A stretch of 34,108 nt of DNA from the NCBI GenBank assembly GCA_903881065.1, contig CAIRRW010000506.1, positions 1 through 34,108 on the forward strand, read 5' to 3'. Below, piece after piece: positions 9,801 through 33,650 of the stretch. The translations under genes were made by a program, and so were the position numbers. A model generated the notes under the pieces. That model had not been told where the DNA came from. It worked only from the letters and a program-made list of their open reading frames with translations, and made no database searches. Origin of the DNA: an uncultured Bacteroidota bacterium (GTDB lineage: Bacteria; Bacteroidota; Bacteroidia; 2-12-FULL-35-15). Within the stretch, counting starts at the first letter, position 1. Each line of letters opens with the position of its first letter.

Positions 9801-11158
9801 AAATGGTTGACGTTGTTATCGGCCGTTCTGCTGAGATGCGCATTATTGATGCTACTACTAAAATTGTATTGACTACAGGAAATATTCCTTACGGTTCACA
9901 GGTTTATGTGACTGGAAATACAAAAATCAAAAAAGGTACTTTGATTTGTGACTGGGATCCATACAATGCTGTAATTGTGTCTGAATTCGGTGGTAAACTT
10001 GAATTTGATAATATCGAAGAAGGCATTACTTTCCGTGAAGAATCGGATGAACAGACAGGATTTAAGGAAAAAGTGATTGTTGAAAGTCGTGATAAATCCA
10101 AGAACCCTGCAATCAGAATTATTGCAAACAAAGAGGTTTTACGTACCTATAACATTCCGGTGAGTGCACACGTTATTGTAAATGACGGAGCGAAAATAGA
10201 GCCGGGACAAATACTTGTTAAGATTCCTCGTTCGTCAGGTAAATCAGGCGATATTACAGGTGGTTTACCACGTGTAACTGAGTTGTTCGAAGCACGTAAC
10301 CCAAGTAACCCAGCTGTGGTTTCTGAAATTGACGGTATTGTTTCTTTCGGAAAAATCAAACGTGGTAACCGTGAGGTATACGTAGAATCGAGAACTGGTG
10401 AGCGTAAAACATATCTTGTACAGTTGAGTAAACACATACTTGTTCAGGAAAACGACTTTATCAAAGCCGGTGAGCCGCTTTGCGACGGTGCAATTACTCC
10501 TAGCGATATACTTGCGATAAAAGGACCTACTGCGGTTCAGGAATATTTAGTGAATGAGGTGCAGGAAGTTTACCGTTTGCAAGGTGTGAAAATCAATGAT
10601 AAACATTTCGAAGTAATTGTTCGTCAGATGATGAGAAAAGTGGATATCAGCGAAGCTGGAGATTCTACTTTCCTTGAAAAACAATTGATAAACAAAGCAA
10701 CGTTTATGGAAGAAAACGATAACCTGTATGCTAAAGTAGTGATACTTGATGCAGGCGAATCGACTCTTTATAAAGCAGGCCAGATTATCAGTGCGCGTAA
10801 ATTAAGAGATGAAAATGGCTCGTTGAAACGCAGAGATATGAAACTTATTGAAGCTCGCGAAGCTATGCCGGCTACATCCAATGCGGTGTTGCAGGGTATT
10901 ACACGTGCTTCGTTGCAAACCAACAGCTTTATGAGTGCTGCATCGTTCCAGGAAACTACAAAAGTATTGAACGAGGCTGCTGTGAGCGGAAAAGTGGATC
11001 ATTTGCTTGGATTGAAAGAAAACGTAATTGTTGGACATTTAATACCTGCAGGTACCGGCTTGAGAGCTTATGATAAGATGATTGTTGGATCTCAAGAAGA
11101 GATGGATAAATTGATGGCTTCGAAAAAAGAAGCTATGGAAGTGGAAGATGATGAATAG
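6863..11158 (+). CDS. rpoC: DNA-directed RNA polymerase subunit beta'
   Basis: [25 protein letters not shown] zinc site and [15 protein letters not shown] catalytic motif. Confidence 0.98.
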
Positions 11159-11704: not shown

Positions 11705-11744
11705 AGAGTTATTAATAGTGCAAAGGCTTTTGTTATATACAAGA

Positions 11745-14700
11745 ATGAAGATATATTACTTTACATATTTTTTACTGGTTATCTTCCTTTCTAGTATTGA
11801 TAAAGGTTATGCCATCGGCATAAAATCTCCGCATCTGGAGTCTGCAATTAAATTTACCGAAAATAAAAAACAATGGGATAAACAAATTCTCTATCGTGCT
11901 CAATTGGATGGTGGGGTTCTTTTCCTCGAAAAGAATTGTTTCACCTATAGTTTCTATGATAAGGAAACGCTCCGCGAAAATCATATAGGAAATTATAAAA
12001 AGGCATCAACAAAAAAGAATGCACCTATACATTCACATGCTTTCAGAATGACTTTTATTAATGCTGAGAAATCTCCAAAAGTGTCGTCAACAAAGGTAAC
12101 AACTGATTACTGCAATTATTATATAGGTAATGATGAGAAGAAGTGGGCAGGTAATGTAAAAAATTATCGTGAGGTAAATTATAAAGGTTTGTATCGTGGC
12201 ATTGATATGCAAATTGAGGGCATGGAGAACACTGTGAAATATAATTTCATAGTGGCTCCTCATGCAAATACCAACGAAATTATATTGTTATATGAAGGAC
12301 TTGAAAAAATTTATCTTGATAAAGGAGCTTTAAATTTTGTTACTTCTGTAAACCAAATGCAGGAGCAGCCGCCTGTTACGTATCAAATTATTGAAGGAAA
12401 AAAGGTAATGGTGAATTGCGAATTTGTTTTAGAAAACAATACAGTACATTTTAATTTTCCGGAAGGGTATGATAAAAATAAAGAACTGATAATAGATCCA
12501 GTGCTTGTGATGGCTTGTTCTTCCGGTTCATTTGCAGATAATTTTGGAATGACTGCTACTTATGATTCACGCGGAAATTTATATTCGGGTGGTACTTGTT
12601 TCGGACAGGGATTTCCTACTACGCTTGGAGCGTATGATACTGTATATAATGGATTGGTGCAGCAAGGAAGAACGGATGTGGTGATAACAAAATATGATTC
12701 GGCAGGTACAGCTTTAGTTTACTCTACCTACTTAGGTGGTGCTACCGGAACAGAAATAGTAACAAGTCTGGTAGTTGACTACCAAAATAATTTACTGCTA
12801 TACGGAGCCACCGGTTCGTCTGATTTTCCTACCAGTACCACTGCTTACGACCAAACATTTAATGGCGGAACTTATTTAAGTTTTGTTGCAAATGGAACTA
12901 GATTTAATGGCGGAACAGATATTTATATTGCTAAATTTAATGCGACAGGCACTTCCTTATTAGCATCTACTTATATTGGCGGTAGTGGCAATGATGGTGT
13001 AAATAATAATAACGATACACTTTATATTCCTTCGTGGGGGGTGTATGAATATCCGCTGGACTCGCTGCAATACAACTATGGCGACCAATACAGAGGAGAG
13101 ATAAATGTGGATGCTTCGGGCAACGTTTATATTGCGAGTTCAACACGGTCAGCAGATTTTCCTATTGTAAATGGTTTTGATAATTCACTAGGCGGAAAAC
13201 AGGATGCGGTGGTTTTTAAAATGAACAGTAATTTATCTCAGCTAATATGGAGTACTTATCTTGGCGGAACGGATAATGATGCAGGGTATGCTTTGGTGCT
13301 GGATGATTCGCTTAATTTATATGTAACAGGAGGGACAAGGAGCAATAATTTTCCGACTACAGCAGGAGTTTTAAAGCCTAATTACTGTGGAGGGAAAGCA
13401 GATGGATATATTACGAAGATAAAAAAGGATGGTTCGGCAATTCTGAATTCTACCTATTGGGGTACTGCCAGCTACGACCAGAGTTACTTTGTACAACTGG
13501 ATCAGAATTCAAATGTATATGTTGTTGGTCAGTCGGAGGGCGCAATGCCAATAACACCGGGTGTTTACAATAATCCAAATAGTGGACAGTTTATTACAAA
13601 AATGAACAGCACCTTGAGTACACTTGTGTTTTCAACTGTTTTCGGAAATGGAAATGGTTTGCCAACTATTTCTCCTGCTGCATTTTTAGTTGATGATTGT
13701 GGTAATATTTATATGACAGGGTGGGGTGGAAATATTATTACCGGTGCTCCTACTTATAATATGCCGCTAACGCCGAATGCTATTCAGCCAACAAATCCAG
13801 ATGGTTTTAACTTTTATTTATTTGTGCTTACTACCAATGCAGCTTCATTGAATTATGCAACTTATTTTGGAGGAGCGCAAAGTAGAGAGCACGTTGATGG
13901 TGGCACGAGCAGGTTTGATAGAAAGGGAGTAGTGTACCAATCGGTATGTGCAGGTTGTCAGGGACATGATGATTTTCCTGTGAAGCCTGGTTGCTGGCCG
14001 TATACAAGTCCAAATTATACTGCTACCACAGGAATCAATTTTGCAAGTAATTGTAATAACGGAACATTCAAATTTGATTTTCAAGTTCCACCTATTACTG
14101 CTGTTTTCAGCGCAGATAGTCTGAAAGGCTGTGCGCCATTCTCCGTTACTTTTCATAATCAAAGTACTTCATGGGGAAATTATTTATGGAACTTTGGAAA
14201 TGGCGATACTACTTCAACAATATTCAATCCAACTCATGTGTTTAATACAGCAGGTACCTATCCCGTAACTTTATTTGTAAATAACGGAACTTGTTCCTCT
14301 AAAGATACAGCTATACATACTGTGATAGTTTATCCGCCAATCACCAGTGATTTTAATTTTGTAAATCCGCCTTGCACCAATACTGTTGTTTTTAAAGATT
14401 CATCTTATGCTTCACCTGCTGTGTGGCAATGGAATTTTGGTGATGGCAGTTCTACATCAACGCTTCAAAATCCTACACATATATATGCTACATCTGGAAA
14501 TTATAATGTAACACTTATAACAGCAAATGCTTTTGGTTGCAAGGATACAACAGTAATTAATTTTGATAATCTTTCAGGAGTAAGTGTCAATCCTTCTACA
14601 AGTATATGTACGGATAACAGTACGCAGTTATCTGCATTAGGCGGAATAGCTTATCATTGGTCGCCTTCGGCAGGTTTGAGCAATACTGCTATTCCCAATC

Positions 14701-15341
14701 CTACTGCTAATCCTGCAGTAACTACCAGTTACAGTGTAAATGTAACGTATGTTACAGCGCATCATGATACTTGTTCGCAGATATTGACTACAACAGTTTC
14801 AGTGTTTACACCCAGTACTTTCCCTCTTTCGGCAACCACCAATAAAGACACTATCACTCAGGGACACTCAACAATAATACATGCTGTTACAGATACGACG
14901 CTTTCAATACAATGGAGTCCGGCTAACGGGTTGAGTAGTGCAACGTCGTTTAATCCTGTTGCATCACCTTCTGTTACCACTACTTATACTGTTACAATTA
15001 CTGATTCATCAGGTTGTCCGAAAAATGCATTTATAACAATTTATGTTATCTCCATGAAATGTAATTCCGATGACGTGTTTGTTCCTAATACGTTTACACC
15101 CAATGGTGATGGGAAGAATGATATATTATACGTAAGGAGTAATAGTGTACAGGAAATTTATTTTGCCGTTTATAATCGTTGGGGAGAAATGGTATTTGAA
15201 ACCAATGATATTCATAAAGGATGGGATGGCATTTACAAGGGAGAGTTGGCGAATACTGATGTTTATGCATGGTATGTAACTGCAAAATGTTACAATGGCG
15301 ATGAGGTGAAGAAGAAAGGAAATGTAACATTAGTTAGGTGA
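11745..15341 (+). CDS. Large secreted T9SS cargo protein: N-terminal conserved domain, SBBP-like propeller repeats, PKD domains, gliding-motility-type C-terminal sorting domain
   Basis: Signal peptide MKIYYFTYFLLVIFLSS; repeated STYLGG...DFPTT...; PKD motifs (LWNFGNGDTTS, WQWNFGDGSSTS); C-terminus VFVPNTFTPNGDGKNDILYVRS...YNRWGEMVFET...WDGIYKGE. ORF start 11718 is GTG; ATG at 11745 fits a signal peptide. Confidence 0.9.
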   Translation: MKIYYFTYFLLVIFLSSIDKGYAIGIKSPHLESAIKFTENKKQWDKQILYRAQLDGGVLFLEKNCFTYSFYDKETLRENHIGNYKKASTKKNAPIHSHAFRMTFINAEKSPKVSSTKVTTDYCNYYIGNDEKKWAGNVKNYREVNYKGLYRGIDMQIEGMENTVKYNFIVAPHANTNEIILLYEGLEKIYLDKGALNFVTSVNQMQEQPPVTYQIIEGKKVMVNCEFVLENNTVHFNFPEGYDKNKELIIDPVLVMACSSGSFADNFGMTATYDSRGNLYSGGTCFGQGFPTTLGAYDTVYNGLVQQGRTDVVITKYDSAGTALVYSTYLGGATGTEIVTSLVVDYQNNLLLYGATGSSDFPTSTTAYDQTFNGGTYLSFVANGTRFNGGTDIYIAKFNATGTSLLASTYIGGSGNDGVNNNNDTLYIPSWGVYEYPLDSLQYNYGDQYRGEINVDASGNVYIASSTRSADFPIVNGFDNSLGGKQDAVVFKMNSNLSQLIWSTYLGGTDNDAGYALVLDDSLNLYVTGGTRSNNFPTTAGVLKPNYCGGKADGYITKIKKDGSAILNSTYWGTASYDQSYFVQLDQNSNVYVVGQSEGAMPITPGVYNNPNSGQFITKMNSTLSTLVFSTVFGNGNGLPTISPAAFLVDDCGNIYMTGWGGNIITGAPTYNMPLTPNAIQPTNPDGFNFYLFVLTTNAASLNYATYFGGAQSREHVDGGTSRFDRKGVVYQSVCAGCQGHDDFPVKPGCWPYTSPNYTATTGINFASNCNNGTFKFDFQVPPITAVFSADSLKGCAPFSVTFHNQSTSWGNYLWNFGNGDTTSTIFNPTHVFNTAGTYPVTLFVNNGTCSSKDTAIHTVIVYPPITSDFNFVNPPCTNTVVFKDSSYASPAVWQWNFGDGSSTSTLQNPTHIYATSGNYNVTLITANAFGCKDTTVINFDNLSGVSVNPSTSICTDNSTQLSALGGIAYHWSPSAGLSNTAIPNPTANPAVTTSYSVNVTYVTAHHDTCSQILTTTVSVFTPSTFPLSATTNKDTITQGHSTIIHAVTDTTLSIQWSPANGLSSATSFNPVASPSVTTTYTVTITDSSGCPKNAFITIYVISMKCNSDDVFVPNTFTPNGDGKNDILYVRSNSVQEIYFAVYNRWGEMVFETNDIHKGWDGIYKGELANTDVYAWYVTAKCYNGDEVKKKGNVTLVR

Positions 15342-15350
15342 AATTGAAAG

Positions 15351-16385
15351 ATGAAAAGAGTAGTGATAATATTATTTATTTGTTTTTCTTCTCTTTTCTG
15401 GAGCGGAGCAGGAGGTGATTTGTCTGCACAGGATATTCATTTTTCTCAGTTTAATGCTTCTCCTCAAAATTTAAATCCTGCACAAACAGGTTTATTTAAT
15501 GGTGATTGGCGATTTGTTGGAAACATTAGAAGTCAATGGGCTGCTGTGCCTGTGCCCTACCGAACGCTTTCTGTTTCTGCAGATAATCGATTGAAAAAAG
15601 ACTTTGCGGGAGGAACCATTGCGGTGGGATTAATTGTAAATACTGATAAGTCCGGCGATTCCAAATTAAGTACAACCAATGTTTATCTCTCACTATCATA
15701 TATAAAAAAGTTGACAAAGGACTCTACACACTTTATTTCCATTGGAGTACAACCTGGCGCTACAACAAAAAATTTCAATCCTTCGGCTTTAACATTTGAT
15801 AGTCAGTATGACGGCGATAGTTTTAATCCTGCATTACCTACTGGTGAAAACTTTACAAATTATAGAATAACTTATTTTGATATTGGGGCAGGATTGGCTT
15901 ATTTATATAGAAAAAATAACAGGTTGTTTGCAAATATTGGTGTTTCGGCATTGCATCTTACTCAGCCTAAAGAATTATTTTTCGGCAGTAGCAGCAGCCA
16001 ATTGGATATTAAAACTGCCGTAAGCAGTATTGTTGAATTCCCTGTTTCGGAGAAGCTGGATGTGGTGCCAACTGTCTTATATCAACATCAAGGAACGTAT
16101 AACGAAACAGTAGCTGGAGGATTTGCAAAATATTATTTAGCCCATGAAGATGGCATGACATCAGCGATTGCCTTGGGAGGTTTCTATCGTATTAAAGATG
16201 GTTTTATTGTTGCTGCGAATATGGATTATCGGAATTTCAATATAGGAATAAGTTATGATGTGAATACTTCTAAACTTATTGCGGCAACAAATCATAGAGG
16301 AGGATTTGAAGTTTCAGTGATTTATATCTTCAGAAAAATTGTTCCTTTTGTTGCGAAAAAAAGAGTCTGTCCTATTTATATGTAG
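15351..16385 (+). CDS. PorP/SprF family type IX secretion membrane protein
   Basis: DIHFSQFNASPQNLNPAQTGLFNGDWRFVGNIRSQW... is typical PorP/SprF; begins 10 nt after the cargo gene. Confidence 0.9.
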   Translation: MKRVVIILFICFSSLFWSGAGGDLSAQDIHFSQFNASPQNLNPAQTGLFNGDWRFVGNIRSQWAAVPVPYRTLSVSADNRLKKDFAGGTIAVGLIVNTDKSGDSKLSTTNVYLSLSYIKKLTKDSTHFISIGVQPGATTKNFNPSALTFDSQYDGDSFNPALPTGENFTNYRITYFDIGAGLAYLYRKNNRLFANIGVSALHLTQPKELFFGSSSSQLDIKTAVSSIVEFPVSEKLDVVPTVLYQHQGTYNETVAGGFAKYYLAHEDGMTSAIALGGFYRIKDGFIVAANMDYRNFNIGISYDVNTSKLIAATNHRGGFEVSVIYIFRKIVPFVAKKRVCPIYM

Positions 16386-24383: not shown

Positions 24384-24439
24384 AACCTCTCACTTTTATT
24401 CTGCTGTCATAAATTATTGCAGAATGAAAATGAGAGGTT
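24384..24439 (-). terminator. Long imperfect hairpin, candidate terminator of the minus-strand operon
   Basis: AACCTCTCACTTTTATTCTGC (24384-24404) vs GCAGAATGAAAATGAGAGGTT (24419-24439): 19 of 21 complementary; minus-strand RNA continues CTATTTTACTTT. Confidence 0.6.
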
Positions 24440-24584: not shown

Positions 24585-25667
24585 CTATTTTATCAATGCC
24601 AATCCTTGCAATGCTGATGTATCACCAGGAGCAAGCATTAATACTTTATTAAACAAGAGTTTAGCTTCTGCTGTTTTGCCTGTTTTGAAATTTGCCCATG
24701 CGTATAATATTAAACCATCGTAACTAAAAGGATATAGATTTACTACTTTCTCGAGATATTGATAAGCAGCGGAATAATCGTTTTTTGAATAATAATAAGA
24801 TCCAAGACCATAATTCGCAAAACTATTTTGAGGATTTATTTCAACAATTTTCTTGTTTTGTTTGCTTATTTCATCATAGTTACCTAATGCACCTAGCGGA
24901 TAATTGATGCCAAAGCGAGGTTCAATAGAATTTGGCTTTAAGTCAATTGCTATCTGATAATATTTAATCGCCTCCTTATTAAGCCCTGAAAGGTAATTTA
25001 ACCATCCCATACGCAAGTTAACATCATAATATTTAAGATCGTAAATGTCTTTTATTGAAGTTATAGCGGAAGCATAATCTTTTTTATATTCAAAATCATA
25101 ACTTTTCGCAAATGCAGCAATTACTTTATCGCTTTGCTTCTCCGACTTGTTTATCTGTTGCCAGGTGTCTCTTAAATAAGGCTCATAACCGGAAGGATAT
25201 AAACTAATTATCTTCTCGAATTGTTTTTTGGCTAGGTCATAGTTCTTTTTGTTGTAATAAATATAGCCTAACTGATAGTTGGAATTAACATCAAGCGGAT
25301 CAACTTCCAATATTTTTTTATAAACTACTTCTAATTCATCCATTTGATTTTGTGCATAAACAGGATAAATGAGTCCAGTTTTTGCTTCAATGGAATAAGG
25401 CATTAATTTAACAGCATTTTGGTAATAAGTAGCAGACTCCTTATTCTTTCCTGCTTTATAGTACAACCAGCCCAACCGAAGATTCTCTTCGTAAGAAGTA
25501 GTTTCATAACTATCCATAAGCGCTTTTATTGCGCCATCATAATCTTTATTTTTTTCAGCTGCATAACTTTTAGAAAAAGCACTTGCCAACTTAACATTTT
25601 GAGCAAACGAATTGTTGATACTCAATAAGAGGATACCTCCGATAATAATTTGTTTGATTTTTTTCAT
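24585..25667 (-). CDS. Secreted TPR protein with internally duplicated halves
   Basis: Signal peptide MKKIKQIIIGGILLLSINNSFAQ, then two homologous halves (ASAFSKSYAAEKNKDYDGAIKAL... and AAFAKSYDFEYKKDYASAITSI...). Confidence 0.8.
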   Translation of the reverse strand: MKKIKQIIIGGILLLSINNSFAQNVKLASAFSKSYAAEKNKDYDGAIKALMDSYETTSYEENLRLGWLYYKAGKNKESATYYQNAVKLMPYSIEAKTGLIYPVYAQNQMDELEVVYKKILEVDPLDVNSNYQLGYIYYNKKNYDLAKKQFEKIISLYPSGYEPYLRDTWQQINKSEKQSDKVIAAFAKSYDFEYKKDYASAITSIKDIYDLKYYDVNLRMGWLNYLSGLNKEAIKYYQIAIDLKPNSIEPRFGINYPLGALGNYDEISKQNKKIVEINPQNSFANYGLGSYYYSKNDYSAAYQYLEKVVNLYPFSYDGLILYAWANFKTGKTAEAKLLFNKVLMLAPGDTSALQGLALIK

Positions 25668-25684
25668 GATTCTAATTGAAGGGT

Positions 25685-27217
25685 TTATTTATTTGTAAAT
25701 TTATTAAAGTTTTTAATTCGTATTCCAATAAAAAAACTGTTGTAATAATAATTAAGTGTTACAGGTAAATTTGTTCGTTTATCTGCAGGAACGGGCAAAG
25801 TAGTTAAATTGTTTTCATAGGTGTAAATTGCAAAAAAGTCAAGATGCTTTCCTGCAGGAATATTGCCAATAATTGAAAGTCGAGAAAGTGTTTTATCTGA
25901 TGAATTATTTATGAAAAGTCCGTTCCCTTCAATAATATTATTATTTGTATCGTCTTTTTGTTTATCATTAAAATCAACCAAATAGTTTAATGTAAACGAA
26001 ATCTTACTAGTAGGCATAAATGTAATATAAGGTGATATTGCTGCCCTTCCTTCAGCCGAATCAATAGTATAAACATAGTGTGCATCACATCCAATTACAA
26101 GTCGGTTATTACCAAATGGGGCATAGGATATAGAAAGAGTACTCTGTACCCTCTTAGTGTTGTTAATATTTGAAAAAGTATTTCCAAGAGCTAAAGATAG
26201 ATTGGAAATGTATTTCGAGACAGTAAATGCCTCAACAAAATAACTACTATGTGAGGTTGATTGTGAACTTAGTAATTTTGGGTTGAATGGTACTTCTACA
26301 ACTGTAGGAGGACCCATAGGAGGATGACCAATAATAGTACCAAATACAGTATTTTCTGTTTTGTGAAGAATATTACTACTAATATAATGTACTGCTGGTG
26401 ATATACTCCAATTTTTTTTTAAAGGAATATTTGCTCCCAGATAATATTGATATTGATTGGTAATATCGTCATTATTATTTATTATTGGTGCAGAAAAATG
26501 GTTGGTTGAATTCACTGGAAAAGGAGGAGGGTCGTGTAAATCAAAAGTTTTAAAGCCATGATTATAATGCGAACTTTCCTGATTAAAATAGGTAAAGGCA
26601 TGAAATAAATAAATCCTATTCTTTACGTAATGCCCCAAAGCAACCTGAAAATACTTGGCGGTGGAATAATGGATTGAATCAGTTTTATTTACAGTAATTG
26701 AATCATTATTGCGAATATTATTTAATTGTTCAGGATGTGGGTTTTCTAAATAAGATGAACTTGGCTGTTTAACACCACCACTCATCTGTATTAAAGCTAG
26801 TGATGATATTTTATCTATTCCTGTTTTAGCTATCAACTCGGTATCAAATGACTTACTTAGAACTCGCGCATCAACATATCTGCCTGAATAAATATAACAA
26901 TAGTATAGATATTCTTTCGAAAGATTATCACCTGAATAAAACGTTAAAGCCTTCTGAAATTGTTTAGTGGCAAACAGATATTTTTTTTTCTCATAATAAG
27001 CAATCCCGAGTCTCAAACGCAAATAGTAATAATCAAAATCCTTTTTTATTGCTTTGTTAGAGAAGGTAATAAGTTCGTTCCAATTCTTGTCAATATAAAG
27101 CTGATAAGATTTTTTTTCAACAAAGGCCGTATTTAGTGTGTCTTGGGCATAAGTTTTCCCTAAAGTAAAAATGAAAAGTAAGATAATTATTCTCCGATAT
27201 TTTCCGCTGAAATCCAT
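25685..27217 (-). CDS. Secreted protein: N-terminal TPR-like region, C-terminal putative outer-membrane beta-barrel
   Basis: Signal peptide; YYLRLRLGIAYYEKKKYLFATKQFQKALTFYSGDN helices; C-terminal half of alternating beta strands (KHLDFFAIYTYENNLT...VTLNYYYNSFFIGIRIKNF). Confidence 0.6.
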   Translation of the reverse strand: MDFSGKYRRIIILLFIFTLGKTYAQDTLNTAFVEKKSYQLYIDKNWNELITFSNKAIKKDFDYYYLRLRLGIAYYEKKKYLFATKQFQKALTFYSGDNLSKEYLYYCYIYSGRYVDARVLSKSFDTELIAKTGIDKISSLALIQMSGGVKQPSSSYLENPHPEQLNNIRNNDSITVNKTDSIHYSTAKYFQVALGHYVKNRIYLFHAFTYFNQESSHYNHGFKTFDLHDPPPFPVNSTNHFSAPIINNNDDITNQYQYYLGANIPLKKNWSISPAVHYISSNILHKTENTVFGTIIGHPPMGPPTVVEVPFNPKLLSSQSTSHSSYFVEAFTVSKYISNLSLALGNTFSNINNTKRVQSTLSISYAPFGNNRLVIGCDAHYVYTIDSAEGRAAISPYITFMPTSKISFTLNYLVDFNDKQKDDTNNNIIEGNGLFINNSSDKTLSRLSIIGNIPAGKHLDFFAIYTYENNLTTLPVPADKRTNLPVTLNYYYNSFFIGIRIKNFNKFTNK

Positions 27218-29385
27218 TTATCTTTTTCCTTAATTGTAAACTTTGATATTCTATTGTTAGATAATTCCAACTCGAAATTAATTTCTCTGTTATTTCCTCC
27301 TACAGCTTTGGCAATAGCGTTAGAAGCAATCTTTATTTTTGTAGGGTGTTGATAGTCGTCAATTTCTTTAAATGTGGATGAGTATTTTGCTTTTAGGAAT
27401 ATAGAGAATGGTGCAATAAAATCCTGCAGTGTTTTTATAATGCCAGGATAGAATCCGCTTATCGGTAAAGCATCAGTTACCTTCATTTCGTGGAAATAGC
27501 TCAATAAAACTTTATGTGTTCCCAAGTAGAAATAATAAAGTAAAGAGTCAGTATCACCTTTAAATGAAGTAAAATAATGCAGTGTTTCATTATTCACAAA
27601 ATAAGCAATTGATTTTGTTTGGTGACAATACATATAAGTTAGGTTTGCCGAATCGACAAATACTTCCCATTTCACTTTTGATTTCTTATCACCATTCGTC
27701 ACTTCAAACTCCATAACCATTCCTGGTGTAAAATGAAATGCTTGAGTCAATAATGGAGTAGGAGTAGTCCTGAATATTTGCTGACCCTCCAAAGGATAAT
27801 CGAAGGAATGAAATTCGTATTTATTATTTTGTTTTGATACATAATATGCAATAGGATATTTCAATGTCTTCGCCCCAACAAACTCAGTTGACTGAAGTTG
27901 GAAATGAATATGCGGTTCAGGCGAACGGCCTGAATTACCACAATTAGCAAGGATATCACCTTTCTTTACATAATCTCCAATTTTAACTTTAAAACTATTT
28001 GCTTTAATATGACTTATCTTGCTGAAAAAATAATCACCATGTTTTATTACTATTGAATTGCCCCAGTTTTCTCCAAGATTCACATCTCCAATAGCATTAT
28101 CTTCTATTCCATCCACAAGGTTAATAATGTAACCTGCACAAGGAGCGAGGATCGGCAATGAATAACAAAAGAAATCTGAAACTTCTTTTCCTGGAAGTTT
28201 AAATGTTTTTTGTGTTTCATCTGTTACTACAAAGTCCCAAGCGTAGCGATAATCTTCCTTGTGAGTTATTTCTCCTTCATGCGCCTGCGATACAAACCAT
28301 TGTCCATAAAAAGGAAGATGAATATGAAAATAAGTGTCATTTTTAAATCGCTCCAAACTATTAGTATAGGCATATAAATTCTTTTCAGGGGAAAACTGCT
28401 GGTATTGAACAAGGTTAAGTTTGTGCACGAAATACCTATTGTTCAATGTGAATATTATTAAAATAACTACTAGTGAAAAAGGAAGAGAATATAATGGCAA
28501 TTGAAAAACTCCAATCATATTTCCTAACGCACTTATCATTAACCCTACCAAAGGAACAGATATTAATGCCCATAAATAGGAGCGAGTAGAAGCAATTAAA
28601 AAATATCCACCGATGGCAATTGCAGATAAAATATAATTAAAACCTATATAACTATATTCCAGTTCAGATAAATTCCCTTTGACAAAATAGCAAAACAGAT
28701 AACCGGTAAAGAAGCCTACAATAGAAAGTGAAAATGCAATGCGCGAGTATATAAATAATCCAATCATTATTAATAACCCTGATATAATATTGTATTGAAA
28801 GAAGATTGCTCCTAATGATTTTAGATATACTTCAGCAAGTAATGGGAATTTCCAAGAGTTTGTTTTTTCATAAATATTAACGAGTGTCGCTCCTCCAATA
28901 TTCCATAATTCATTGAAAGAATAAATGCTTCTTTCACTTAATTGTAATGCTCCAAAACTTCGTGAACACAGAAGAATCATCCAAATGCCTATTATGAAAG
29001 GCAAACTTAAAAATGGAACTTTATAAGCTGAAAATACGGATGCAATTGAAACAGTAAGAATAAGTGTTAGGAAAGAAGCGATTAGTAGCATCACGAAAAA
29101 TGGTATGGTACAATGGAAAAATATTCCCATCGCAAGACCAGTAAGTAATGAATTGTAGCTGTATGTTCCACTTCGGATTATAATTGGATTAAGACCTAAT
29201 AGTTTTGCGAAAAAGATAGAAGAAAGTGCACAGATAATCCCGCTTAATCCGGTAAAAGGATCAATAAAAGAGGCAGCAATAACAAAAAGTGCAAGCCAAA
29301 TGTTGTTCGAAAACAACATTTGGCTGTAACTATTTGTTATACTATCTCTATAAAACTTTACCTGCTCTTTTACGCTACCCTGCAC
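27187..29385 (-). CDS. Urea transporter-like membrane domain fused to an M23 metallopeptidase domain
   Basis: N-terminal FIDPFTGLSGIICALSSIFFAKLLGLNPIIIRSGTYSYNSLLTGLAMGIFF (UT family); C-terminal GENWGNSIVIKHGDYFFSKISHIKANSFKVKIGDYVKKGDILANCGNSGRSPEPHIHFQLQ (M23, HIH motif). One uninterrupted ORF. Confidence 0.88.
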   Translation of the reverse strand: MQGSVKEQVKFYRDSITNSYSQMLFSNNIWLALFVIAASFIDPFTGLSGIICALSSIFFAKLLGLNPIIIRSGTYSYNSLLTGLAMGIFFHCTIPFFVMLLIASFLTLILTVSIASVFSAYKVPFLSLPFIIGIWMILLCSRSFGALQLSERSIYSFNELWNIGGATLVNIYEKTNSWKFPLLAEVYLKSLGAIFFQYNIISGLLIMIGLFIYSRIAFSLSIVGFFTGYLFCYFVKGNLSELEYSYIGFNYILSAIAIGGYFLIASTRSYLWALISVPLVGLMISALGNMIGVFQLPLYSLPFSLVVILIIFTLNNRYFVHKLNLVQYQQFSPEKNLYAYTNSLERFKNDTYFHIHLPFYGQWFVSQAHEGEITHKEDYRYAWDFVVTDETQKTFKLPGKEVSDFFCYSLPILAPCAGYIINLVDGIEDNAIGDVNLGENWGNSIVIKHGDYFFSKISHIKANSFKVKIGDYVKKGDILANCGNSGRSPEPHIHFQLQSTEFVGAKTLKYPIAYYVSKQNNKYEFHSFDYPLEGQQIFRTTPTPLLTQAFHFTPGMVMEFEVTNGDKKSKVKWEVFVDSANLTYMYCHQTKSIAYFVNNETLHYFTSFKGDTDSLLYYFYLGTHKVLLSYFHEMKVTDALPISGFYPGIIKTLQDFIAPFSIFLKAKYSSTFKEIDDYQHPTKIKIASNAIAKAVGGNNREINFELELSNNRISKFTIKEKDKWISAENIGE
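29294..29325 (-). other. Perfect 14-bp inverted repeat with 4-nt loop (UUCG on the sense RNA), inside the CDS
   Basis: agccaaatgttgtt-cgaa-aacaacatttggct; arms 29294-29307 and 29312-29325. Confidence 0.95.
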
Positions 29386-29388
29386 AAT

Positions 29389-30747
29389 TTATAATTTGAA
29401 ATCTTTTAAATATTTTGGCGTTACTTCGTCTCCCTGAATACTATTTAATGTTTCTCGGTTCCTTATAATATGAGCTTTTTCTTCCATATCAATCATTATA
29501 ATTGCCGGTCGCAATGCAATAAACTGCATCCATTGTGTCATATTATACGCTCCCACTGTATGCACTACCACATGGTCATCTCGTTTTAATGGTGGCAAGG
29601 TAATGTTTTCACGAATAACATCAATATTCATACACAATGGGCCATACAATACAGCGTCTTCGGTATATTGGCTAAACTCCTGTGCCGGACTAACTTTATG
29701 GTCATACCAGAAAGAAGTGAATAAAATATTTACTCCGAAATCCATAATTGTTGCACGTCTTCCATCTGCTAATCGTTTGTTCGAGATAACTGTTCCTAAC
29801 AATGATCCTGCTTCATCTATTAACGCCCGTCCTGTTTCAAGTATTAATAAAGGTAACTCGTTCTCAACAAAACCTGCATTTAAAATCGCTGTAGTTATTG
29901 CTTCAGCAAACTGATCAAAGGATGGAGAAGAGTCCGCACCTTGTAAATACGAGCCTTTTAGCGTGTTTTTAGATGCAAAACCTCCACCCATATCAATGTA
30001 TTCAACATTCTTTTTATATTTCTTTTTGATGCTTAAAGCAAGTTCCGAAAGTTTGGAAGCTGCCACACCGTAAGCACTAGGAGCCAACATAAATGTTCCT
30101 ATATGTGAATGCAAGCCTACTAAATCCATAGTGTCATTCAACATTATTTTGTTGATGGCATCCCAAGCCTGTCCATTCTCATAGTTGAAACCAAATCTGT
30201 CCCACATCGGATATACTCCAGTGTCCATATTCACTCGTATTGCTACTCTAGGTCGCTTTTTGGCATTTGTTGCCAACTCTTTTATCAAATATAATTCATC
30301 TAAATGATCAATATGAATCAATGAATTATTCTCAATAGCAAGTTTTAATTCTGCTTCTGTTTTATCTGGACCGTTAAAAATAATCTTATTTCCCGGTACC
30401 CCATTATGTAAAGCTTTGTTGTATTCAAAACCCGATACAACCTCCGCCCACGAACCTTCTTGGTGAAATACATTACAAACTGCATTGTTGTAATTCGTTT
30501 TGTACGACCAGGCAAACTGCACTTTAGGATAACGTGTTTTAAACGCTCTATTCGCATCTCTTAAAGTCCTGCGGATGGTCTTTTCGGAGATTACAAATAA
30601 TGGTGAACCATATTTATTTATAAGTTCTTCTACCGAATTCCCATCAATATGAGTTACCGGTGCGTATTCAGTTTTCTTTCCGAATTTGTTCATTACCCCA
30701 ACGTTCAAACGTTGTATTACGGGGCGTTCATACTGTAGTCTTTTCAT
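29389..30747 (-). CDS. Fold-III PLP-dependent decarboxylase (diaminopimelate/ornithine decarboxylase family)
   Basis: PLP-Lys region FAWSYKTNYNNAV, HSHIGT, DMGGGFASK, ETGRALIDEAG, GPLCMNIDVI, VGAYNMTQWMQF. ATG at 30747 preferred over ORF start 30771. Confidence 0.88.
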   Translation of the reverse strand: MKRLQYERPVIQRLNVGVMNKFGKKTEYAPVTHIDGNSVEELINKYGSPLFVISEKTIRRTLRDANRAFKTRYPKVQFAWSYKTNYNNAVCNVFHQEGSWAEVVSGFEYNKALHNGVPGNKIIFNGPDKTEAELKLAIENNSLIHIDHLDELYLIKELATNAKKRPRVAIRVNMDTGVYPMWDRFGFNYENGQAWDAINKIMLNDTMDLVGLHSHIGTFMLAPSAYGVAASKLSELALSIKKKYKKNVEYIDMGGGFASKNTLKGSYLQGADSSPSFDQFAEAITTAILNAGFVENELPLLILETGRALIDEAGSLLGTVISNKRLADGRRATIMDFGVNILFTSFWYDHKVSPAQEFSQYTEDAVLYGPLCMNIDVIRENITLPPLKRDDHVVVHTVGAYNMTQWMQFIALRPAIIMIDMEEKAHIIRNRETLNSIQGDEVTPKYLKDFKL

Positions 30748-30830
30748 ATTCTGTATTGTTATATTGTTCAATGGTTATATTGTTGTTGTGTCACTTGATT
30801 TTCAAATTAGCACATTCAAAAATTTAATCT

Positions 30831-31880
30831 CTATAATTCTCCTAAAGTTGAAATCTTTTCAAACTCTTCTAACTCTACAATTAAATCGTATGAATATCTA
30901 ACAAATAATTTACCCACATCATACTTTTTAAAAGGTTTTACATCTTCACCTAATGCCAGACTTACCAATGCTTCCGGATGGTTTTGTCCACAACCTACTG
31001 CCAGGTAAACCCATGCTGGGAAACGAGGATTAATCTCCAACAAATAATAATCACCTTCATTGGTTTTAATAATCTCTAGTTCCATACCACCTCTCCATTT
31101 ACAGCCTTTAAAAAGCTTTTTCGTCATATCCAGCAAGTTTTTATCATCCAGTGATATACCTGACCATGCTTTCCCTTTGTCTGTAATGTACTGTTTACGC
31201 ATCGGTACAGCACCTATCACATTTCCTTTGCCGTCTCCTATGGCTGTTACATTTACTTCCTGGCCATATACCATTTCCTGAATGATAATTGGCAAGCCCC
31301 ATTTAGCGCTTATCTTATTGAAATAAGTGGCAGCTTGTTCAGGTGTATAAGCAATCGAAGCATCATAAAATTTACCTTTAACAACTAATGGATAAGTAAA
31401 TTCATCTTTAAGTGCAGGTATTTCAGCAGTACTGAAAATCATTTTTCCATACGGAACTTTAATGCCGTGTTTCCTTCCATACTCCGAAAGATTTGCTTTG
31501 TGACGCTCCTCAAACTGTTCCAAAGTAGGTAGAAATGTTTTTATCTTCATTTCCTTTTTTAACGTATCCGCCAACGTGATAAAATTATAAAGCTCAGCAT
31601 CAAAGTTTGGAATCAATACATCAATCTTTTCTTTTTCATGTATATATTTCAATCGTGTAAGCAATGCAGCCTTTCCTGTCGATGGAAATGGAATCTGGTA
31701 TGTTTTGTCAACAAGATCATGCATATAAATACCCGGCTCCAATGTCTCATACGAAAGCCCAATGATGCGTACATCATATAGTTTACTTTCTTTCAATGCA
31801 CGTATTACCGGCACTCCCGGGCCGGGACTGTCAATGGCATTTAAGCCGGTAACAGCTACATTAATCTTTTTTCTTTTCAT
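30831..31880 (-). CDS. ATP-grasp domain ligase (CPSase-large/carboxylate-amine ligase-like)
   Basis: N-terminal NVAVTGLNAIDSPGPGVPVIRALK; ATP-grasp VVKGKFYDASIAY, IIQEMVYGQEVNVTAIGD, YLLEINPRFPAWVYLA. Confidence 0.88.
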   Translation of the reverse strand: MKRKKINVAVTGLNAIDSPGPGVPVIRALKESKLYDVRIIGLSYETLEPGIYMHDLVDKTYQIPFPSTGKAALLTRLKYIHEKEKIDVLIPNFDAELYNFITLADTLKKEMKIKTFLPTLEQFEERHKANLSEYGRKHGIKVPYGKMIFSTAEIPALKDEFTYPLVVKGKFYDASIAYTPEQAATYFNKISAKWGLPIIIQEMVYGQEVNVTAIGDGKGNVIGAVPMRKQYITDKGKAWSGISLDDKNLLDMTKKLFKGCKWRGGMELEIIKTNEGDYYLLEINPRFPAWVYLAVGCGQNHPEALVSLALGEDVKPFKKYDVGKLFVRYSYDLIVELEEFEKISTLGEL

Positions 31881-32121
31881 CGTTTTCTGTAAGTTTTATT
31901 TTACTTAACATCTCCACAAAGTCGAAATAATCTTTTTCAAAACTTACCTCATCTATCATGTATAGTTTTACAATGGCAGCTTTTATTTCCTGAGGAGTTT
32001 TCTCTTCCTTAAGCATTTTTATTATCTCCAACCCTATCGGATTAGTTGAATAGGAGTCGCCTGTTGATGGATCAAATACAAATCCCGAATCGCTTAATGC
32101 TACGTTTCTTTTTATTTTCAT
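31861..32121 (-). CDS. PqqD family protein (86 aa)
   Basis: VALSDSGFVFDPSTGDSYSTNPIGLEIIKMLKEEKTPQEIKAAIV matches the PqqD-fold pattern; overlaps the ATP-grasp gene by 20 nt. Confidence 0.75.
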   Translation of the reverse strand: MKIKRNVALSDSGFVFDPSTGDSYSTNPIGLEIIKMLKEEKTPQEIKAAIVKLYMIDEVSFEKDYFDFVEMLSKIKLTENDEKKKD

Positions 32122-32153: not shown

Positions 32154-32161
32154 CAAAAGTA
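32154..32161 (-). promoter_or_regulatory. -7 box (TAnnTTTG) for the PqqD operon
   Basis: Minus strand TACTTTTG, 32 nt upstream of the ATG; no clear -33 TTTG. Confidence 0.45.
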
Positions 32162-32209: not shown

Positions 32210-32905
32210 CTAATTAGCTAAATGGCGCATTGCATCCTTCCTGTATTTATTACCAATCGGAATCTCTCGTCCGGCAATTGAAATGATTCTGCTTTTTACA
32301 TTTTCGATTCTATTCAGAGGAATAATATATTTACGATGAACACGTATAAATTCATTCGTGTTTAATTTCGATAGCATCATTTTCATAGTAAGTCGGGTAG
32401 TTATCCGCTTCTGATTCTGCAGGTAAATATTAATATAATCTCCCAGTGATTCAATATAAAGTATATCCGAAAGTATAAACTTCCTCAATCCATAATCAGC
32501 ACGCAGAAACATATTTGGTTTTTCTTCTGCATTATTGCTATTCAATTTAATGTTGTAATTTAAAATAGCTTTATTCAACGCTACAGATAATCTGTCTTCC
32601 GAATAAGGTTTTAGCAGAAAGTCAATAGCATTCATGTTATATGCATCCACAGCAAGGTCTTTTGTTTCCGAAACAAAAATAACCATGGTGTTTAGCTCCG
32701 ATAATAATCTGAAATCAACCCCCGAACCTTTTGCCATCTCAATATCTATAAACAGCAAGTCAACTGGCGATTTGTGCAAATATTTCAGTCCTTCATTAAT
32801 AGTAGTAAATAGCTTTTTGAGTTGAAACCTTTGCGAATCAATACACCCTTTTTCTATAATTTCTTTAAACAAAGGTTCTTTATCTATAATTATGGCTTGT
32901 AACAT
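32210..32905 (-). CDS. LytTR-family response regulator
   Basis: REC domain (DLLFIDIEMAKGSGVDF, FVSETKDLAVDAYNMNAIDFLLKPY) plus LytTR (ILYIESLGDYINIYLQNQKRITTRLTMKMMLSKL...FIRVHRKYIIPLNRIENV). Confidence 0.93.
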   Translation of the reverse strand: MLQAIIIDKEPLFKEIIEKGCIDSQRFQLKKLFTTINEGLKYLHKSPVDLLFIDIEMAKGSGVDFRLLSELNTMVIFVSETKDLAVDAYNMNAIDFLLKPYSEDRLSVALNKAILNYNIKLNSNNAEEKPNMFLRADYGLRKFILSDILYIESLGDYINIYLQNQKRITTRLTMKMMLSKLNTNEFIRVHRKYIIPLNRIENVKSRIISIAGREIPIGNKYRKDAMRHLAN

Positions 32906-33047: not shown

Positions 33048-33650
33048 TTAATCCAACAGCGAATTCAGAGATTTTCTGTCCTTTTTACCCAGATTTTTAT
33101 AGTCGCTTACCGTATAGCCTGTAATCTGTTTAAACTGATTGCTCAAGTATTGAACACTGCTGTATCCCATAAAATAAGCTATTTCACTAAGCGTATATTC
33201 ATCATAGCTTATCATCTCCTTTATTTTCTCCGCTTTTATAAGTATAATATATTTCTCCAAAGTCATTCCGGTAGTTTCCGAAAACACCTTGCTCAAATGC
33301 TGATACGATTGTTGCAGCTTCTCACTCAAATAATCCGAATTCTTGATCAGCGAAGTATTATTATTACCATAAAAAACAAACTGAATCACTGTAGTCTTTA
33401 TCTTTTCCACCAGCTTTTTATTCGTATCCCGCAACAGTTCGAAACCATTTTTTTTCAGAATCTCATTCACCACATCCAAATTAAATACCTGCGTATCCAG
33501 CTGAATCTCCGCTTCACCCAAGCTCACATTTATCACTTCTATAAACCCCGTCCGTTCCAGTTCCTGCCGCACTAGTTTAATGCAACTATCACTCACCATA
33601 TTTTTAATATAGATAATCGTTCGTGTAGTATTGAAGTTATGTTTTTGCAT
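33048..33650 (-). CDS. Transcriptional regulator: N-terminal HMA-like domain plus C-terminal AraC-type HTH
   Basis: IYIKNMVSDSCIKLVRQELERTGFIEVINVSLGEAEI (HMA-like) and YTLSEIAYFMGYSSVQYLSNQFKQITGYTVSDYK (AraC HTH). Confidence 0.85.
   Translation of the reverse strand: MQKHNFNTTRTIIYIKNMVSDSCIKLVRQELERTGFIEVINVSLGEAEIQLDTQVFNLDVVNEILKKNGFELLRDTNKKLVEKIKTTVIQFVFYGNNNTSLIKNSDYLSEKLQQSYQHLSKVFSETTGMTLEKYIILIKAEKIKEMISYDEYTLSEIAYFMGYSSVQYLSNQFKQITGYTVSDYKNLGKKDRKSLNSLLD

Follow-up and report, generated by a model that had tools for sequence, protein, structure and literature searches.

We analysed a stretch of 34,108 nucleotides (nt) from an uncultured Bacteroidota bacterium (contig CAIRRW010000506.1 of assembly GCA_903881065.1; hereafter the window), which carries on its minus strand an operon whose genes encode a PqqD-fold protein, an ATP-grasp ligase, a fold-III pyridoxal 5'-phosphate (PLP) decarboxylase, a fusion of a urea-transporter (UT) domain with an M23 metallopeptidase, a barrel protein and a TPR protein. 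From its 5' end, the operon is composed as follows:

24585-32121, minus strand: six-gene operon, all six open reading frames (ORFs) found there
31861..32121, minus strand: PqqD-fold protein, resembling a RiPP (ribosomally synthesized and post-translationally modified peptide) recognition element (RRE), 86 amino acids (aa) (Pfam PF05402, 5.4e-7)
30831..31880, minus strand: ATP-grasp ligase, CPSase/PRK12767-like, 349 aa (Pfam ATP-grasp, 5e-10)
29389..30771, minus strand: fold-III PLP decarboxylase, FslC/FigC-like, apparently not citryl-specific (Pfam Orn/DAP/Arg decarboxylase, 2e-29)
27187..29385, minus strand: UT-M23 fusion, 732 aa (Pfam UT, 8e-60; M23, 1e-12)
25685..27217, minus strand: secreted protein with TPR and a 16-strand outer-membrane beta-barrel, 510 aa (AlphaFold, Foldseek)
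24585..25667, minus strand: periplasmic TPR protein, 360 aa (Pfam TPR, 1e-25)

An earlier sequence-only reading of the window had described these six genes as one operon. Its junctions of -20, 3, -31 and 17 nt were recovered exactly, and its 83-nt gap holds when ATG 30747, and not the upstream TTG 30771, is taken as the decarboxylase start; this ATG is the probable start, as it gives a protein of 452 aa, in line with most orthologues. Its gene labels are backed by Pfam, except for that of the barrel protein, which has no convincing Pfam family and is backed by AlphaFold and Foldseek.

The operon is real and strongly conserved; the function that we propose for it below is a hypothesis. The arrangement is beyond chance: different families, from no fewer than two phyla, keep one gene order, in which pqqD is followed by ATP-grasp, the fold-III decarboxylase, UT-M23 and TPR, with or without the barrel. 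This order recurs in Bacteroidota (Ignavibacteria included), in metagenome-assembled genomes (MAGs) of Myxococcota/Deltaproteobacteria and in single MAGs filed elsewhere. Among the 121 loci collected (a few being one contig fetched twice, and counts being made only where the sequence reaches), pqqD adjoins the ATP-grasp gene in 116 of 117, the decarboxylase gene adjoins the ligase gene in 110 of 111, and UT-M23 lies downstream in all 98. Rare co-occurrence of homologues in other genomes would have spoken against the sequence-only reading; in a sample of 396 genomes spread evenly over the phylum, the three largest core genes were found in the same 34 genomes. Every match to the ATP-grasp ligase in these genomes has E < 1e-88, with none weaker down to the limit of 1e-25; the decarboxylase was present at 47% identity or more, two weak matches of 30% being found in other genomes, and the UT-M23 fusion occurred in no other genome. 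The association between UT-M23 and ATP-grasp corresponds to a Fisher p of about 6e-50 with relatedness ignored, and gene distances correlate with r = 0.66-0.88, uncorrected for relatedness. A cassette of five to six genes, present in about 9% of the sampled phylum genomes and in at least two phyla, probably makes a widespread small molecule not yet known. No description of this gene combination was found in the literature library searched, most subscription journals lying outside it.

Within the genus of the window, the operon occurs in 6 of the 35 other genomes. At least 560 relatives of the ligase emerged from a scan of 85,462 species, 80 of which were kept; among the carriers are Pedobacter, Hymenobacter, Ignavibacteria and some high-GC MAGs filed as Myxococcales or Deltaproteobacteria, and culturable carriers such as Pedobacter and Hymenobacter open the product to direct testing. 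Single carrier MAGs labelled Melainabacteria, Clostridia and Gammaproteobacteria may be misbinned; the carrier phyla number at least two, the exact figure being uncertain given this possibility. On the contig filed under Melainabacteria (L145), the decarboxylase nests beside the window genus, which points to transfer or misbinning. One genus genome contains an extra, diverged copy of pqqD, ATP-grasp and decarboxylase genes (L035, G012:C126) that groups with Hymenobacter and Pedobacter enzymes, which suggests horizontal transfer of this second copy. Apparent ligase-decarboxylase fusions in high-GC MAGs were rejected as long ORFs arising from few stop codons; domain mapping resolves them into separate genes. 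Among the matches listed by a plasmid search, there were only relatives of at most 30% identity.

The nearest solved structure to the decarboxylase is FslC/FigC (7kh2), with 278 bits by profile versus 202 for the best diaminopimelate decarboxylase (DAPDC). The catalytic residues K91, H221, E312, R315, C380, D384 and Y409 are invariant in 112 of 112 orthologues, and the residues that recognize diaminopimelate (DAP) and citrate are lost. At the specificity-helix position, the Arg of DAPDC, which binds the distal carboxylate of DAP (PMC7857480), is replaced by T352 in 111 of 112 orthologues, and the Glu that follows the catalytic Cys in DAPDC is replaced by M381 in all of them. FslC shows the same Thr and Met substitutions; the LysA proteins of the genus keep Arg and Glu. 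I383 and Q413, again present in 112 of 112, stand where FigC has H357 and R387, two residues proposed from docking to contact the citryl group (PMC7857480). Because of this replacement citrate is unlikely to be the acyl partner, and the pocket would be FslC-like yet ill-suited to citrate. In the decarboxylase tree the single FslC sequence sits on a long branch, and its placement is uncertain.

By its sequence, the operon decarboxylase is not LysA, the ordinary enzyme that the sequence-only reading had kept in mind as an alternative. It scores 218 bits against TIGR01048 (LysA; cut-off 297.9), and its best NCBIfam match, NF041039 (N-citrylornithine decarboxylase), reaches 237.5 bits, far under the cut-off of 500. 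The LysA of the genus is a different gene: 29 of 36 genus genomes, four operon carriers among them, possess another gene that passes the LysA cut-off (scores 306-395). The genome of the window itself (G000) and two others (G022, G024) carry the operon without a gene over this cut-off, and four (G016, G030, G031, G033) have neither; possible lysine auxotrophy or missing contigs may account for such genomes.

Published clade 2 of these AR-fold decarboxylases comprises FigC together with SbnH, AcsE, MccE and BtrK, enzymes whose substrates are conjugated amino acids (PMC7857480). With its complete catalytic set and the Thr and Met changes, the operon enzyme is a candidate for this clade, which is marked by an enlarged pocket not made for DAP. 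With FslC/FigC as its closest solved relative and BtrK and MccE in the clade of FigC, the earlier idea that the operon enzyme acts on a conjugated amino acid gains support. In the rhizoferrin pathway of Francisella (FslA/FslC, also FigA/FigC), as would be the case here, a ligase is followed by a decarboxylase that takes a conjugated amino acid as its substrate, and the decarboxylases share the Thr and Met changes relative to DAPDC. However, FslA is an NRPS-independent siderophore (NIS) synthetase and the operon ligase an ATP-grasp enzyme, the citryl-binding His and Arg of FslC are Ile and Gln in the operon enzyme, and the Francisella pathway is devoid of PqqD, UT-M23 and barrel. The sequence-only reading had drawn a parallel to BtrJ/BtrK of butirosin biosynthesis, which likewise pairs an ATP-grasp ligase with a fold-III decarboxylase for a conjugated amino acid. 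The logic of this parallel is sound, but the operon does not belong to the same kind of system: BtrK depends on the acyl carrier BtrI, whereas the operon contains no carrier protein, is not an aminoglycoside cluster and is distributed far more widely.

The predicted model of the UT-M23 fusion (pLDDT 90.6) consists of a UT channel fold (residues 14-313), an M23 metallopeptidase (about 355-500) and a beta-rich C-terminal domain (about 510-732) to which no family was assigned. Its UT part superposes on the bacterial urea transporter dvUT with a TM-score of 0.85, and its M23 part on LytM domains; the zinc and catalytic residues H375, D384, H459, H492 and H494 are kept in 38 of 38 proteins. The urea-recognition residues, in contrast to these, are lost. 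At the pore Thr and Glu/Gln positions, which we take from the dvUT structure to be the urea contacts, the 38 operon UTs have mostly Ser in place of Thr (35 and 25 proteins at the two positions) and mostly Ala, Ser or Leu in place of Glu (35), while both Thr (8/8) and the Glu/Gln (8/8) are intact in the stand-alone UTs of the phylum. All other 10 UT-bearing genomes among the 396 encode such stand-alone UTs of about 300 aa. A convincing urease was detected in 1 of 40 operon carriers versus 6 of the 10 genomes with a stand-alone UT; five more carrier genomes gave weak urease matches alone, which were taken as related amidohydrolases. With pore residues changed and urease nearly absent, the UT part probably does not transport urea, contrary to its original label, and it differs from dvUT and Yut, with which it has the full-length fold in common, also by the fused M23 domain.

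In UT proteins both termini are cytosolic. The operon UTs show basic N- and C-terminal flanks and an acidic central loop, and no extra hydrophobic membrane helix follows the UT part in either the sequence or the predicted model. From charge bias and homology, the M23 domain is thus predicted to be cytoplasmic, and because of this predicted location it is, despite its intact zinc site, probably not a wall hydrolase; the envelope use suggested earlier for the UT-M23 protein becomes doubtful. Compared with the LytM/M23 endopeptidases DipM and lysostaphin, fold and all zinc and catalytic residues are common, but the operon M23 is predicted to be cytoplasmic, lies C-terminal to a channel and is followed by an additional beta-rich domain. 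If the topology holds, UT-M23 would be a peptidase fixed at the inner opening of a channel. Automatic annotation easily misnames the cassette genes as LysA, urea transporter and cell-wall peptidase. An apparent natural split between UT and M23 genes in a one-contig genome (G040; L100, about 11000-11030) was dismissed as a frameshift or sequencing error, as the break falls at a T7 run and homology continues unbroken across it. Among the first UT-M23 codons, a 29-nt inverted repeat (29279-29340 of the window; 86% complementary, perfect core of 14 bp, loop of 4 nt) was noted, which is partly kept in the nearest relative (L029).

The alignment of 41 PqqD orthologues shows a conserved core (GFxF..tG.....N), with conservation mainly at structural positions and without a conserved Ser, Lys or Cys or a C-terminal Glu of carrier type. 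In the ATP-grasp ligase, K168, ELE (267-269) and EINPRFPAW (282-290) are conserved. The barrel protein is predicted by AlphaFold (pLDDT 82.8, pTM 0.78) to consist of N-terminal TPR-like helices and 16 strands; Foldseek matches its barrel to outer-membrane barrels of the FadL/OmpG type with modest TM-scores, and its sequence is weakly conserved (about 16-35% outside the nearest relative). The 360-aa TPR protein is a tandem duplication of a TPR family of about 200 aa found in other operons (its halves align with a score of 324), and most loci carry a single-unit homologue of 200-217 aa.

We propose that the operon encodes a dedicated biosynthesis-and-transport pathway, a reading to which we give about an even chance of being correct. 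A cytoplasmic ATP-grasp ligase would join an amino acid to an uncharged partner; candidates for this partner are a small acid, a peptide and a carrier that the PqqD-like protein holds. From the conjugated amino acid, the FslC-like decarboxylase would strip the alpha-carboxyl group to give an amine. The conjugate may then be hydrolysed by the M23 domain, on the cytoplasmic side of the channel, which would let a small amine or amide exit by way of the UT pore; the TPR-barrel, together with the periplasmic TPR protein, would carry the product over the outer membrane. The computational evidence itself covers the gene content and its strict co-inheritance, the intact catalytic residues of decarboxylase and M23, the conserved motifs of the ATP-grasp ligase, the folds of UT, M23 and barrel, and the lost recognition residues for DAP, citrate and urea. 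Beyond this we infer the substrate and its partner, the order of the steps, M23 as the releasing enzyme and PqqD as a substrate-presenting subunit. The sequence-only reading, which had pictured a cytoplasmic module that activates and decarboxylates an amino-acid or peptide substrate, with the remaining proteins serving transport or envelope use, is thereby partly supported. More tentatively, and somewhat doubtfully, the operon might represent an undescribed class of pathway, in which PqqD-like subunit, ATP-grasp ligase and decarboxylase assemble a carrier-bound amine and the cytoplasmic M23 frees the product straight into a rebuilt urea channel, release thus being coupled to export. Scaffold-peptide pathways of the PEARL (ammosamide/3-thiaglutamate) type are similar in that an amino acid is built on a carrier and released later; they use an aminoacyl-tRNA ligase instead of an ATP-grasp enzyme, no scaffold gene was found at the operon, and release by a channel-fused M23 is a proposal of ours.

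Several observations weigh against the proposed biosynthesis-and-transport pathway. PP-binding carrier domains had no match in the six operon proteins and did not recur in the neighbour families examined, and there is no room between the core genes for a carrier or precursor gene. The sequence-only reading had recognized no precursor peptide; likewise, the 700 nt preceding pqqD contain, over 114 loci, no small ORF conserved beyond near relatives, a genome-wide search not having been made. In addition, M23 enzymes usually work outside the cytoplasm, the choice of cargo is narrowed by the very small size of the molecules that UT channels carry, and the direction of transport, export rather than import, is itself a presumption.

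PqqD-fold partners are known in RiPP pathways, and a RiPP or scaffold-peptide pathway would explain the PqqD fold: the protein would recognize a peptide encoded elsewhere, the ATP-grasp enzyme would add an amino acid or macrocyclise, the decarboxylase would finish the product, M23 would cut the leader and the barrel would export it. Published work regards PF05402 proteins as recognition elements and takes ATP-grasp genes to be markers of RiPPs (PMC12710340), and MccE of clade 2 acts on a peptide-nucleotide antibiotic (PMC7857480). Yet the absence of a conserved small ORF from the 700 nt upstream in 114 loci and of space between the core genes speaks against this explanation, as do a UT-type pore too small for a peptide and the lack of an ABC exporter in the operon, and we consider it rather unlikely. 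A still less likely alternative is uptake and salvage, with barrel and UT importing small amides or wall fragments for the cytoplasmic M23, ATP-grasp and decarboxylase enzymes; such a role would agree with the resemblance of the barrel to the uptake channels FadL and OmpG, with the cleavage of wall peptides by M23 relatives and with the two-component and AraC regulators often adjoining the operon, but a ligase combined with a decarboxylase is a biosynthetic pairing, the conserved core has no recurring catabolic enzyme, and wall peptides exceed the size of the UT pore.

If M23 were instead periplasmic, the small molecule made by the enzymes might cap or edit peptidoglycan, for which the intact, LytM-like M23 site and the envelope location of TPR and barrel proteins could be cited; the charge pattern and the same-side UT termini, from which M23 is predicted to be cytoplasmic, and the lack of a further membrane helix past UT make this improbable. 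Finally, the view that the decarboxylase is simply the LysA of the cell, surrounded by chance neighbours and a urea transporter, might be drawn from the missing canonical LysA in the window's own genome and two relatives. It is already contradicted by the separate LysA-level gene in most genus genomes, by the loss of both DAP-recognition residues from the operon enzymes, by a gene order kept across phyla and by the near absence of urease from carriers. Known anti-phage systems are also not represented, as PADLOC defence models gave no match to the six operon proteins.

The operon is flanked by the following features:

32154-32161, minus strand: -7-like box of the Bacteroidota type, TACTTTTG, weak
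24384-24439, minus strand: intergenic hairpin 3' of the last gene, possible terminator (intergenic fold z = -5.1)
32210..32905, minus strand: LytTR response regulator, probable regulator of the operon, 88 nt upstream of it
33048..33650, minus strand: AraC-family regulator, its N-terminal region resembling by eye a heavy-metal-associated domain, without a Pfam match there

Of the two flanking signals invoked earlier for a single transcript, the downstream hairpin stands, its 21-nt arms (24384-24404 and 24419-24439) being 90% complementary. The upstream box is present but carries little weight, because such boxes are not more frequent in the window than in shuffled sequences (47 versus 53 expected). 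Members of the LytTR family lie beside the operon in 18 loci and those of the family of such AraC-type regulators in 19; genes for LytTR, AraC and histidine-kinase proteins adjoin it in 36 loci.

Between decarboxylase and UT-M23 genes, some Bacteroidales (L136, L137, L148) contain an extra gene of about 305 aa, which is IF-2B-like in L136. Recurrent inserts at this site (IF-2B-like, or in other loci an ECF sigma factor or UPF0047) were considered as core genes and discarded, being local only. Upstream of the operon, a secreted protein of about 280 aa with a type IX secretion system (T9SS) sorting domain is encoded in 15 loci (L108-L116 and others). Elsewhere in the window, positions 11718-16385 encode a T9SS-type PKD/CHU_C protein followed by PorP/SprF and adjoin rpoB/rpoC, which is ordinary Bacteroidota content.

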